Source of the DNA: an uncultured Pelagibacteraceae bacterium
Lineage (GTDB): Bacteria; Pseudomonadota; Alphaproteobacteria; Pelagibacterales; Pelagibacteraceae
Assembly: GCA_902576785.1 (NCBI GenBank)
Contig: CACGWC010000005.1
Coordinates: forward strand, 27,743-91,742
Length of the DNA stretch: 64,000 nucleotides
Reading direction: 5' to 3'
Below the pieces are notes generated by a model. That model was not told where the DNA came from, searched no databases, and worked only from the letters and a program-made list of their open reading frames with translations. Shown in pieces: positions 22,090 through 32,954 of the stretch. The translations under genes and the position numbers were made by a program. The stretch's first letter is position 1, and each line of letters begins with the position of its first letter.

Positions 22090-22734
22090 CTATTCAGTTT
22101 TTTTTTTTAAATTAGAAATTTTTATGATCAATGATTCATTATTGGTTACACTTTCTTTTTCTTCATAATCAAATTTCCATAATTTTTTTGCATCATCTAT
22201 GATTTTTCTTCCACTTTTACCTAAAAATAAAATAATATATTTAAATTCTTTAAAATTATTTTGTGCGATCTGAAAAATTGTCGGTAAAGGTTTAAATGCT
22301 CTAGAAATAATTACATCAGTTCGTAAATTTTTTTCACTAAAAATATTTTTTTGGTGAATTTCAGAATTCAAATTAAATTTTTTTGTCATTTCTTTTAAAA
22401 AATTACTTTTGTGGTAGCTTTTTTCGTAAAAAATTACCTTAAATACTGGATTTTTTGTTTTCATTAAAATACCTAAAACTATACCAGGTAGCCCTGCGCC
22501 CGAACCAAGATCGGTGCAAATATTTATATCACTTTTATCAATAAAATCAATAGTTTGTGCACTATCATTTATATGCCTGTTATTTATGTTTTTTTCTGTA
22601 CTTTTGCTTATGAGGTTTATACTTTTATTTTTTGTTATTATTGAATCAGAGTAAATCTCAAGCTCCTCTAATGTTTCACGTGAAACATCCGGTATGATAA
22701 ATCTTTTAATTTTTATATTATTCGAATCAATCAA
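22090..22734 (-). CDS. rsmG: 16S rRNA (guanine527-N7)-methyltransferase
   Basis: [28 protein letters not shown]; next to mnmG. Confidence 0.95.
22672..22687. promoter_or_regulatory. parS centromere-like site (TGTTTCACGTGAAACA)
   Basis: Perfect 16-bp palindrome identical to the canonical chromosomal parS consensus, inside rsmG codons for VSRET and about 0.7 kb from parA. Confidence 0.93.
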
Positions 22735-26158: not shown

Positions 26159-28090
26159 ATGGAAAATAAATTTAACGTATTGGAAGAAGCAAAAAAATTA
26201 CACAAAATAGGTAAGATAGACCAAGCAATAAAGGAATATTTAAAAATAATTAATGACTTTAAAAATGAAGCACAAGTTTATTTTTTAATTGGAACTGCTT
26301 TTTTACAAATTAAAGATTATAAAAAATGTGTTTTTTACTTATCGAAAGCTATTACATTAAAAAAAGACAAAGAAAGCTACTATAACAATATCGGTATTGC
26401 TTTAAGTCAACTGAATAATAATGAGAGTGCAATAATAAATTATAAAAAAGCGCTAAAACTAAATCCAAATTTTCTCGATGCAAATATTAATATTGGAATT
26501 GCTTATAGAAAATTACTTAATTTTAATGAGGCCATAAAATATTTTAATTATTCTCTTAAATTGTCTCCTAATAATTATAAAATTTATAATAATATTGGTA
26601 ATCTACTAAGAGATGTGGGTAAATCTGATGAGGCAATTAAATCTTACGATAAATCCATAAATTTAAATAAAGATAATGCTGAAGCCTATAATAATAAAGC
26701 TGAAATATTTCTATCAAAGAAAAAATTCGTTGAGGCTATAGGAGAATTTGATAATGCATTAAATGCAGACCCTAAATTTCCATATTTATTTGGTAAATAT
26801 TTGCATTCAAAAATGCATATTTGTGATTGGGATAATTTTAGCTCTAACTTAAAAATATTAAAACATTCTATTGAAAATAATGAGAAAATTATAGAGCCCT
26901 TTCCTTTGCTATCATTAATTGATGATATGTCTCTACAAAAAAGAAATTCTATACTTTACAGCAATGTGGCTTTTCAAAAAGATAGGGATTATAATAGTGA
27001 AAATTTAAAGAAGCTTAAAAAAATTAAAATTGGTTATTTCGGAGCAGAATTTTATAATCATCCAGTTTTACAATTAACTAAAGATATATTTAAGAACCAT
27101 GATCAGTCTAAGTTTGAAATTTATGGTTTTTTTCATGGACCTGTTAAAGATAAATTGCACTTTGAAATCCAAAAATATTTTACTAAATTTTATGATGTAA
27201 CAAAAAAATCAGATGGAGAAATTGTAAGTCTTGCCCATAAAATTGGTTTAAATATAGCTGTAAATTTGACAGGATACACTTCGGACGCAAGGAATGAAAT
27301 ATATTTAAAGAAAGTTGCACCAGTACAAATAAGTTATCTTGGATATTCAGGAACAATGGGAACCACATTTATAGATTATATAATCGGCGACAACTTTCTT
27401 ATCCCAAATAATTTTGAGAAATTTTACACAGAGAAAATATTAAGATTGCCAAACAGTTTTTTTCCAAATCCTACAAATATTAAAATTTCTAAAAAAAAAT
27501 TTAATAAAAAAAATGTGGGAATTCCCGATAAGTGTTTTGTCTTTGGTAGTTTTAATAATAGTTATAAAATTACACCAATAGTTTTTGAGGCATGGATGAA
27601 TATATTAAAAAAAACTAATAATAGTGTTTTATGGTTGCTAAATAATAATGAAATTGCATCAAAAAACTTAAAAAAGGAATGTAGAAAGTTTGATGTAGAT
27701 ACTGAAAGAATTATTTTTGCGGACAAACTTATTTACGATGAACATTTAAAAAGGTTTGAAATAATGGATCTTTTTTTAGATACCTTTCCTTACAATGGTC
27801 ATACAACGGTAATCGAGGCAATAAGAAGAAAAGTTCCAACTCTTACATTAATTGGTGAATCTTTTGCTTCAAGGGTTGCTGGAAGTATATTAAATTCAAT
27901 TGGTTTAGATCAATTAATAACAAAAAACCTAGATGATTATGTAAAAACTGCGATTGAATTGCATAATGATAATAGAAGGTTTATAGAAATTAACAAAAAA
28001 TTGGAAAAAGAAAAAGTTTTAAAGTTATTTGATTCTAAAAAATATACTGCAAACTTAGAAAAAATTTACGAAAGTTTTTTTAAAAATTAG
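26159..28090 (+). CDS. TPR-repeat O-GlcNAc transferase-like glycosyltransferase (GT41/SPINDLY family)
   Basis: Multiple N-terminal TPRs, then the GT41 signature (IGYFGAEFYNHPVLQLTK, VAPVQISYLGYSGTMGTTFIDYIIGD, DLFLDTFPYNGHTTVIEAIRRKVPTLTLIGESFASRVAGSIL). Confidence 0.92.
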   Translation: MENKFNVLEEAKKLHKIGKIDQAIKEYLKIINDFKNEAQVYFLIGTAFLQIKDYKKCVFYLSKAITLKKDKESYYNNIGIALSQLNNNESAIINYKKALKLNPNFLDANINIGIAYRKLLNFNEAIKYFNYSLKLSPNNYKIYNNIGNLLRDVGKSDEAIKSYDKSINLNKDNAEAYNNKAEIFLSKKKFVEAIGEFDNALNADPKFPYLFGKYLHSKMHICDWDNFSSNLKILKHSIENNEKIIEPFPLLSLIDDMSLQKRNSILYSNVAFQKDRDYNSENLKKLKKIKIGYFGAEFYNHPVLQLTKDIFKNHDQSKFEIYGFFHGPVKDKLHFEIQKYFTKFYDVTKKSDGEIVSLAHKIGLNIAVNLTGYTSDARNEIYLKKVAPVQISYLGYSGTMGTTFIDYIIGDNFLIPNNFEKFYTEKILRLPNSFFPNPTNIKISKKKFNKKNVGIPDKCFVFGSFNNSYKITPIVFEAWMNILKKTNNSVLWLLNNNEIASKNLKKECRKFDVDTERIIFADKLIYDEHLKRFEIMDLFLDTFPYNGHTTVIEAIRRKVPTLTLIGESFASRVAGSILNSIGLDQLITKNLDDYVKTAIELHNDNRRFIEINKKLEKEKVLKLFDSKKYTANLEKIYESFFKN

Positions 28091-29860: not shown

Positions 29861-30853
29861 TTAAATGTTTCTTTTAATTAAATGATTTATTAAATTTATG
29901 TGATCTTCACTATCATTGAGACAAGGTATCATATCAAAATTCTCCCCACCAGATTCCATAAAGCTTTCTCTTCCTTGAATTAATATTTCTTCTAAAGTTT
30001 CAACACAATCCGATGCAAACCCAGGGCATATAGCTAAAACATTTTTTTTTCCTTCTTTTGGTAAATTTTCTAAAGTTTTATCAGTATATGGCTGAAGCCA
30101 TTCTTGTGGCCCAAATCTAGATTGAAAAGTTGTTTTAATTTCAATTGATTTAAATTTTTCAGATATTAACCTTGTAGTTTTATGACAATAACAATGATAT
30201 GGATCGCCTTTGTCAAAGTATTTCTTTGGTATTCCATGATAAGATGCTAAAATTAGATCAGGCTTCCAATTTAATTCACTTATTTTAGAATTAATAGAAT
30301 TTACAAGTGCATCGATATACAAAGGATCTGACTCATAATGTGGTATTATTTTTAAAGAAGGCTGCCATCTCATAGACATCAAAGTTCTATAAACCTCGTC
30401 ACACACCGTTGCAGTGGTTGCTGCTGCATATTGCGGGTATAGAGGTAAAATTACGAGATTTTCGCAACCATCATCATGTAACTTTCTGATTTTACTTTTT
30501 ATACTCGGGTTCCCATATCTCATTGCAAAATCTATAATTAAATTTTCATTTGATATTAGATTTCCTACCTTCTCTGCTTGTTTCTGAGTATAATATAAAA
30601 GAGGCGACATATTTTCTTTTTTCATCCATATTTCTTTGTAAGCCTTCGCAGTTTTAGACGGTCTTAAGTTAAGTATGAAAACATTCAATATTAATTGCCA
30701 CAAAATCGGATTTACCTCTATAACTCTTCTGTCTGATAGAAATTCTTTTAAATATCTTCTAATATCAAACCAGCTTGTTGAGTCTGGTGTACCAAGATTA
30801 ATAATTAAAGCACCTGTTTTTCCATATTTAACCTCAGGATGATCTACATTCAT
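29861..30853 (-). CDS. hemH: Ferrochelatase
   Basis: ALIINLGTPDS, ILASYHGIPKKYFDKGDPY, CPGFASDCVETLEEI. Confidence 0.97.
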   Translation of the reverse strand: MNVDHPEVKYGKTGALIINLGTPDSTSWFDIRRYLKEFLSDRRVIEVNPILWQLILNVFILNLRPSKTAKAYKEIWMKKENMSPLLYYTQKQAEKVGNLISNENLIIDFAMRYGNPSIKSKIRKLHDDGCENLVILPLYPQYAAATTATVCDEVYRTLMSMRWQPSLKIIPHYESDPLYIDALVNSINSKISELNWKPDLILASYHGIPKKYFDKGDPYHCYCHKTTRLISEKFKSIEIKTTFQSRFGPQEWLQPYTDKTLENLPKEGKKNVLAICPGFASDCVETLEEILIQGRESFMESGGENFDMIPCLNDSEDHINLINHLIKRNI

Positions 30854-31851
30854 TTATAATTCCTAACAATTTTTACTAATTCTTCTACCATCTCAATTTT
30901 AGTTTCTGGAAGAATACCATGTCCAAGATTAAATACATAAGGGTGATCTTTAAAAACCTCTAAATATTTATTCACTTTCTTTTTTAAGTGCGCTTTATTT
31001 GTTAATAGTACCTCGGGGTGCAATCCGCCTTGAATAGGTAAATCTACATTTTTAAGTAAATTTTTTGGATCTACATCATAGTCTATATTAATCATGCTTG
31101 GCTTAACGATTTTACAAAATTGATTGTAGTCAGTTATACCTCTTGGAAAACAAATAACAGGTACTCCTAAACTCTTGGTATAATTAACTAAAGATAAAGT
31201 TGGACTATATAGATATTTGTCAAAATCGAATTCAATCAGTCCAGACCAGCTATCAAATATTTGAATTATAGTAGCTCCAGCATTTACTTGGTTTTTAATA
31301 TGGATCTTAATAAATTTATCTAGAATTGTTAATAAATTATTAATTAAGCTTTTATCTGAAAAAAAATTACTTACTAAACCATTTTTTGGGGAGACTTTAT
31401 TTATCATATATACAAGTAATGTCCATGGTGCTCCCACAAAACCAATTATGTCTTTTTTATTTAAATCTTCACTTTTTTTTAAATCAGCTAGAAGATCATA
31501 TATCGGAGATAAATTTTTTATAAATTCTTCTTCATCAATTTTTTGCAACTTGTCTATTTCCAAGTCTCCAAGATTTGGCCCAAAGTTTTTTTTAAACTCA
31601 ACTTTTTGTCCAAGACCATAAGGTATCATTAAAATATCTGAAAATATGATCGCTGCATCAAACGCAAACCTTTTGATTGGTTGGAGAGTTATTTCCTTCG
31701 ATAATTTAGAATTCAGGCAAAGATTTATAAAATTTGGGTTATTTTTTCTTATTTCTCTGAATTCAGGCAAATATCTACCTGCTTGTCTCATTAACCAAAT
31801 GGGAATGAGATCTGTTTTATTATTTATTAAACATTCTTTAATCGGTGTCAT
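30850..31851 (-). CDS. hemE: Uroporphyrinogen decarboxylase
   Basis: PIWLMRQAGRYLPEFRE, GFVGAPWTLLVYM, FNLGHGILPET. Confidence 0.97.
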   Translation of the reverse strand: MTPIKECLINNKTDLIPIWLMRQAGRYLPEFREIRKNNPNFINLCLNSKLSKEITLQPIKRFAFDAAIIFSDILMIPYGLGQKVEFKKNFGPNLGDLEIDKLQKIDEEEFIKNLSPIYDLLADLKKSEDLNKKDIIGFVGAPWTLLVYMINKVSPKNGLVSNFFSDKSLINNLLTILDKFIKIHIKNQVNAGATIIQIFDSWSGLIEFDFDKYLYSPTLSLVNYTKSLGVPVICFPRGITDYNQFCKIVKPSMINIDYDVDPKNLLKNVDLPIQGGLHPEVLLTNKAHLKKKVNKYLEVFKDHPYVFNLGHGILPETKIEMVEELVKIVRNYK

Positions 31852-31852
31852 T

Positions 31853-32132
31853 TATAATAAGATAATTATATTAAGATTTATTATTAGTATGATTTGTTAA
31901 TAACGTAAATTACTCAATTTCAACACTTTATTCACTTTTTATTCACTATTATAAAAAAAAAATCCTTTAAAATAAGGATTATTTAATTACTTATATATTT
32001 ATGGAAATTGTTGATTACTTATTCACATTTATAAAAATGTTAATTAAACAATAAGAAGTAACCTAAAATAAGATGTAGTTGTTAAATCAAAAGTTTTTCT
32101 TATTCTATAATTAATTTATAAACAATTTATAC
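31853..32132. other. Candidate chromosomal replication origin (oriC)
   Basis: The largest AT-rich intergenic gap in this part of the window; TTATTCACA (32019-32027), TTATTCACT (31928-31936) and TTATTCACT (31939-31947), all on the + strand; flanked by hemE; gene blocks diverge from it. Confidence 0.8.
31961..31980. repeat. Inverted repeat AATCCTT-N6-AAGGATT in candidate oriC
   Basis: AATCCTTTAAAATAAGGATT, preceded by an A-tract. Confidence 0.8.
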
Positions 32133-32954
32133 ATGAAAAATACACATCAAGTTTATCTAATATCGGATTCAACAGGAGAGACGCTTGATAGAATATTCAT
32201 GGCTTTAAAAGCACAATTTAATAACTTTGAATATGATTTAAGCAAATTTTCGTTTACAAGAACCGAAAACCAAATTTCTACAATATTAAATAATGCCAAA
32301 AAGAAAGAAAGTCCAATTATTTTATATACTGTTGTTAATAGTAAATTGGCAAAGTTTCTTGCGGAAGAAGCTAATAAAAAAAACATTCCGTGTTTTGGTG
32401 TTTTGGGCGATTTAATACTCAACTTCTCAAAAATTTTGAATGAAAAAGCAACACATCAACCTAGCGCTCAACATGTTTTAGACGAAGATTATTACAAAAG
32501 GATTGAAGCAATACAATTTACCATGAATCATGACGATGGTAATAATACCGAAAATATTTTAGAATCCGATATTATTTTAGTTGGTGTTAGCAGAACAAGT
32601 AAGACGCCGACTTCCATATATCTTGCAAACAAGGGATTAAAAACTTCAAATATTCCACTCGTCAATGATATGAGTATTCCAAATGATATTATGAAATCAA
32701 AGACTTTATGTGTCATTGGCTTAATCACAGAAGCTGAAAGGCTATACGACATAAGAAGAAATAGATTAAATTCACTGAAAGAAAATGAAGCATCAGACTA
32801 TACAAATTTAGAAAAAATTAGATTTGAAGTAGAACAATCTAAGAAGATATTTAAAAAAAATAAATGGCCGACTATAGATGTAACTAGAAAATCAGTTGAA
32901 GAAACTGCAGCATCAATAATTAAAATATTTGAAATACAAAATAAAAATGCTTGA
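32133..32954 (+). CDS. Pyruvate phosphate dikinase / PEP synthase regulatory kinase-pyrophosphorylase (DUF299)
   Basis: VYLISDSTGETLDRI, VGVSRTSKTPTSIYLANKG. Confidence 0.95.
   Translation: MKNTHQVYLISDSTGETLDRIFMALKAQFNNFEYDLSKFSFTRTENQISTILNNAKKKESPIILYTVVNSKLAKFLAEEANKKNIPCFGVLGDLILNFSKILNEKATHQPSAQHVLDEDYYKRIEAIQFTMNHDDGNNTENILESDIILVGVSRTSKTPTSIYLANKGLKTSNIPLVNDMSIPNDIMKSKTLCVIGLITEAERLYDIRRNRLNSLKENEASDYTNLEKIRFEVEQSKKIFKKNKWPTIDVTRKSVEETAASIIKIFEIQNKNA

Follow-up and report, generated by a model that had tools for sequence, protein, structure and literature searches.

The 281-bp gap between hemE and the COG1806 gene is very probably oriC, the single chromosomal origin of this SAR11 genome, as judged from its sequence. 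Copying of the chromosome would thus very probably start at a location that agrees with the known origin of related bacteria. The gap lies in a stretch of 64,000 nucleotides (hereafter the window) taken from a draft genome of 1.196 Mb in 26 contigs. Its placement as oriC, proposed in a first-pass annotation of the same DNA, is supported by synteny with Caulobacter, by conservation at about 120 loci from several genera, by a genome-unique module of DnaA-trios, spacer and DnaA box, by the proximity of parS and, coarsely, by GC skew. Alphaproteobacterial origins of the Cori type, located between hemE and COG1806, are already known, and the SAR11 gap would add a well-supported member to them; a search of the available literature found no paper that names a SAR11 oriC.

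The Caulobacter origin, which has been mapped experimentally, is flanked by hemE and COG1806, and the predicted origin of Rickettsia is bounded likewise, as described in PMC1914354. The adjacency of hemE to oriC that had been called established in both organisms is thus experimental in Caulobacter and a prediction in Rickettsia. In the window the intergenic region is flanked by the same two genes and, as in Cori-type origins, is AT-rich (84.3% AT vs. 70.9% for the window; 15.7% vs. 29.1% GC), so the AT-rich gap of about 280 bp between hemE and the PPDK-regulator gene was correctly described. The two boundary genes diverge from it as claimed. The minus strand does not carry the whole block between parB and hemE: a plus-strand ORF of 643 amino acids (26159-28090) with TPR-like repeats interrupts it.

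For comparison, relatives were taken from the GTDB collection, where the nearest are Pelagibacteraceae, i.e. SAR11, and this gave 124 non-redundant loci. The gap could be measured in 121 loci and was 254-288 bp long (median 281), and this length is kept although more distant loci show only about 45-65% hemE identity. The location, sequence, polarity and conservation of the elements in and around the gap were read directly and are collected in Table 1.

Table 1. Features of the putative origin region, in window coordinates; percentages are loci with at most one mismatch, given as near/far loci
Feature	Position	Strand	Sequence or description	Conservation
hemE, boundary gene	30850..31851	-	uroporphyrinogen decarboxylase; first-pass name, consistent with synteny	
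Putative oriC	31852..32132	.	hemE/COG1806 intergenic region, 281 bp, 15.7% GC	
Candidate DNA-unwinding element	31852..31890	.	AT-rich, adjoins hemE, includes the trio array; presumed role	
DnaA-trio array	31879..31890	+	TAT-TAT-TAG-TAT (3'-5' from the box; consensus 3'-GAT-5')	three or more NAN trios in register in 100/109 genus loci
Spacer, trios to box	31891..31894	.	4 nt; GATT here	GTCC, GCTC or GTCA in some other genera
L box	31895..31903	-	TTATTAACA; anchor of the unwinding module	88%/94% (genus loci)
Conserved element directly after L box	31904..31912	.	CGTAAATTA	96/124 loci
M1 box	31928..31936	+	TTATTCACT; in first-pass annotation	31%/22%
M2 box	31939..31947	+	TTATTCACT; in first-pass annotation	14%/72%
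Inverted repeat	31961..31980	.	AATCCTT (31961-31967)-N6-AAGGATT (31974-31980); lineage-specific, outside the conserved core	exact in 1/124 loci
C1 box	32009..32017	-	TAATCAACA; most relatives have TTATTAACA; forms an inverted pair with C2	90%/56%
C2 box	32019..32027	+	TTATTCACA, perfect; in first-pass annotation	81%/25%
R box	32116..32124	+	TTATAAACA; 8 bp separate it from the COG1806 start codon	72%/91%
COG1806/DUF299 gene, boundary gene	32133..32954	+	PPDK regulator; first-pass name, consistent with synteny	
parS	22672..22687	.	TGTTTCACGTGAAACA, perfect; inside gidB, 9.2 kb from the gap	

DnaA-like boxes occur above chance in the gap, with a mean of 3.98 per 280 bp over the 124 loci vs. 0.72 in dinucleotide shuffles, and at least three were present in 119 of them. 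Over the same loci the real box motif outscored all of 150 letter-permuted decoys. Single near-boxes carry no weight, since the AT-rich window as a whole holds 89 sites within one mismatch of TTATNCACA where 106 are expected; what stands out is the clustering, as the five boxes with one mismatch or better in the gap form the densest 280-bp cluster of the window. The strict TTATNCACA was found in only 55% of loci, and most boxes therefore carry one mismatch.

Box positions are fixed across the loci, and about six can be told apart: L on the minus strand, M1 and M2 on the plus strand, the inverted pair C1 (minus) and C2 (plus), and R (plus). The L box lies about 42 bp past the hemE start and is a perfect TTATNCACA in 59% of the far loci, and other genera have a box-like site at the same COG1806-side edge as R. 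The three boxes listed in the first-pass annotation, the perfect C2 and the two TTATTCACT sites 11 bp apart, are real; when conservation was followed across SAR11 loci, as had been suggested there, the enrichment and the fixed positions held up and M1 and M2 turned out to be weakly conserved. The best conserved parts, the trio array, L, C1 and R, had been missed. Nor do all boxes point the same way, as had been stated, because the best conserved one is on the minus strand and C1 is inverted relative to C2. With about six positional boxes in both orientations and a DnaA-trio array, the architecture is comparable in layout to ordinary origins rather than minimal. SAR11 DnaA is present and carries the RDHTTV/I signature, which is typical of the DnaA helix-turn-helix.

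Next to hemE the gap contains a module made up of four trios, a 4-nt spacer and the L box; the 43 bp from hemE up to the L box (31852-31894) include only 4 G/C. In the loci of the genus the first T of the trios is conserved in 94-99% and the middle A in 89-96%, while T or G predominates as third base; a spacer of 4 together with at least three in-register NAN trios was seen in 100 of 109. Across all genera, out-of-register spacers (2, 3, 5, 6, 8 and 9) yielded almost no trios and the in-register spacers 1, 7 and 10 did, and in genera g3-g6 the array was short (0-2 trios) under the same automatic anchor. The exact string of trios, spacer and box was present in 24 of 101 genomes, each time as one copy. 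In 23 of these 24 it lies beside hemE; in the remaining genome a contig end truncates hemE, and a different contig carries the string. A reversed control pattern gave one match in total in the 101 genomes.

The published basal unwinding system (BUS) consists of a DnaA box, a spacer and trios with a middle A (consensus 3'-GAT-5'), along which a filament grows 3' to 5', and the orientation of the box is fixed (PMC8287927, PMC6669920 and PMC8235120). Order and polarity of the module in the window are the same, where the direction of box relative to trios was judged from the text descriptions in these papers and from E. coli R1. A BUS is recognised by a DnaA box with at most two mismatches, a spacer of at most 16 nt and at least three NAN trios in register (PMC8287927). 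The window has a box with one mismatch to TTATNCACA (two to TTATCCACA), a spacer of 4 and four trios, and is by these letters a candidate BUS.

A gap between divergent genes could merely be a promoter or regulatory region for hemE and COG1806, in which the boxes are chance products of AT-rich DNA or serve DnaA as a transcription factor. Besides the gene arrangement, this is suggested by a TTGAC/TTGAG-like hexamer beside the L block in 79 of 124 loci, and the Cori of Caulobacter also contains hemE promoters. We consider it very improbable, as promoter-like sites were not above shuffles (4 vs. 6.1), and promoters are not characterised by a trio register, a genome-unique module or an invariant length. 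This was further supported by lineages in which one boundary gene is gone. In the sister genus g2 (G201 and G207; loci L273-L275) hemE is 31-33% identical and hundreds of kb away, and the box-bearing, origin-like gap stays between COG1806 and a rho-like gene. In a second family of the order, f2 (L261-L272), COG1806 was not found in the nine genomes tested, and the box-bearing gap persists between hemE and the next gene, which is maf-like; several of these genomes have runs of three or four TAG preceding DnaA boxes at the same hemE edge. A gap serving hemE or COG1806 alone should not survive both cases; the boxes remain without hemE in g2 and without COG1806 in f2. Promoters may nevertheless coexist with oriC in the gap.

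Independent markers point to the same region. The perfect parS inside gidB is the only perfect copy in the draft genome, and most relatives likewise have just one. The distance from parS to the gap is 7-20 kb in 12 of 12 genomes; the motif is perfect in 11 of them and has one mismatch in the other, a complete relative genome of 1,308,759 bp (G211). GC skew was followed in sampled stretches of four complete genomes, where the gap falls in the top 1-3% of positions (block-permutation P of 0.0025, 0/400, 0/400 and 0.10). The cumulative minimum is found 28-32 kb to either side of the gap, and the local minimum takes the form of a basin, about 65 kb across, that holds the gap and has dips of similar depth on both sides, so skew alone cannot select the gap. 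The skew check proposed in the first-pass annotation thus places the origin within tens of kb of the gap and no finer. No dif site was found for a test of symmetry, a dif-like 22-mer with 3 mismatches having given a single match in 11 genomes.

This coarse resolution raises the question whether oriC is a different intergenic site no more than about 30 kb off, such as one near the local minima of the skew (-31 kb or +28 kb). The mean cumulative skew at -31 kb is indeed a little below that at the gap, single genomes have their minima between -29 and -32 kb or between +28 and +29 kb, and there are some other clusters of 4-6 near-boxes within 100 kb, the gap not being the densest cluster within that distance at every locus. 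The minima, however, lie on different sides in different genomes, local skew follows gene orientation, and the trio-spacer-box module is found exclusively by hemE, which makes a neighbouring site just as improbable as a mere promoter region.

Least probable of all is that replication starts some 61 kb from the gap at dnaA, where many bacteria have their origin, with the hemE/COG1806 arrangement as a relic of synteny: at least one SAR11 study begins its alignments at dnaA (PMC12421898) and in G082 dnaA falls within the accepted skew range, but in G012 it is outside that range, it sits where the basin of the mean skew is rising, the distance from parS to the gap is 7-10 kb in g1 genomes, and in four genomes dnaA overlaps dnaN by 7-8 bp and lacks an upstream box cluster, for which absence we rejected it as the origin site. 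In three complete or near-complete genomes (G012, G082 and G155) dnaA lies on the same side of hemE as parB, at a distance of 61-63 kb.

Taken together, our results favour the hemE/COG1806 gap as oriC. Unwinding from the L box and the trios is the best-supported mechanism and a likely one, and from the arrangement of the elements we infer DnaA occupancy, melting and initiation at the gap as follows. DnaA would bind the L box and form an oligomer with the aid of the remaining boxes (M1, M2, the C1/C2 inverted pair and, at the opposite edge, R). The oligomer would extend from the L box over the 4-nt spacer onto the trio strand, which would be stretched, and would melt the AT-rich stretch of about 40 bp beside hemE, allowing the helicase to be loaded and two forks to leave. 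The new origins would then be segregated by parABS, 9 kb off.

It is possible, though rather unlikely, that CGTAAATTA, fused to the anchoring DnaA box, is a lineage-specific conserved element binding an extra factor that replaces CtrA/IHF control. The inverted repeat described in the first-pass annotation is present in the window and private to its lineage, and was rejected as an origin element on the basis of its exact match in one locus of 124. No terminator or structured RNA was found in the gap. CtrA sites (TTAA-N7-TTAA) are absent from the gap of the window and present in half of the loci, hence not a fixed feature; strict IHF consensus sites are likewise absent from it and occur in 8% of loci, equal to shuffles. 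There is no GANTC in the gap of the window. Over the 124 gaps GANTC is depleted (0.08 vs. 0.42 per gap in shuffles), contrary to expectation for CcrM-controlled origins. According to PMC1914354, CtrA sites are relatively scarce in other alphaproteobacterial origins and both CtrA and IHF sites vary there, and because of this variability their absence does not disqualify the gap from the location class. CtrA sites are here treated as a mark of Caulobacter-type control, not of the hemE/COG1806 location.

SAR11 are among the most abundant bacteria of the sea, and read coverage relative to the origin is used more and more to estimate their growth. An oriC at hemE/COG1806, and not at dnaA, would fix the zero point from which these estimates start. 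With the module described to the base (L box, 4-nt spacer and four trios), in vitro tests of initiation in a streamlined genome would also become possible.

Compared with the Cori of Caulobacter crescentus, the gap has both boundary genes, the AT-richness and the DnaA sites in common; in both organisms parA/parB and the gid genes are on the hemE side. Cori is longer (404 bp vs. 281 bp), and the gap of the window is without CtrA, strict IHF and GANTC sites. The G-box TGATCCACA, a feature of the Caulobacter origin, is also absent from it. The predicted oriC of Rickettsia prowazekii resembles the gap in its boundary genes, in being very AT-rich and in belonging to a small genome, and differs in length (384 bp); it is known from prediction only. 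With the BUS of Bacillus subtilis (DnaA-box 6/7 and DnaA-trios) the window differs in that its genus has a single anchoring box, a spacer that is not GC-rich and a third trio base that is mostly T, whereas the box, the spacer of about 4 nt, the in-register trinucleotides with a middle A, the polarity and the AT-rich stretch beyond are shared by both.
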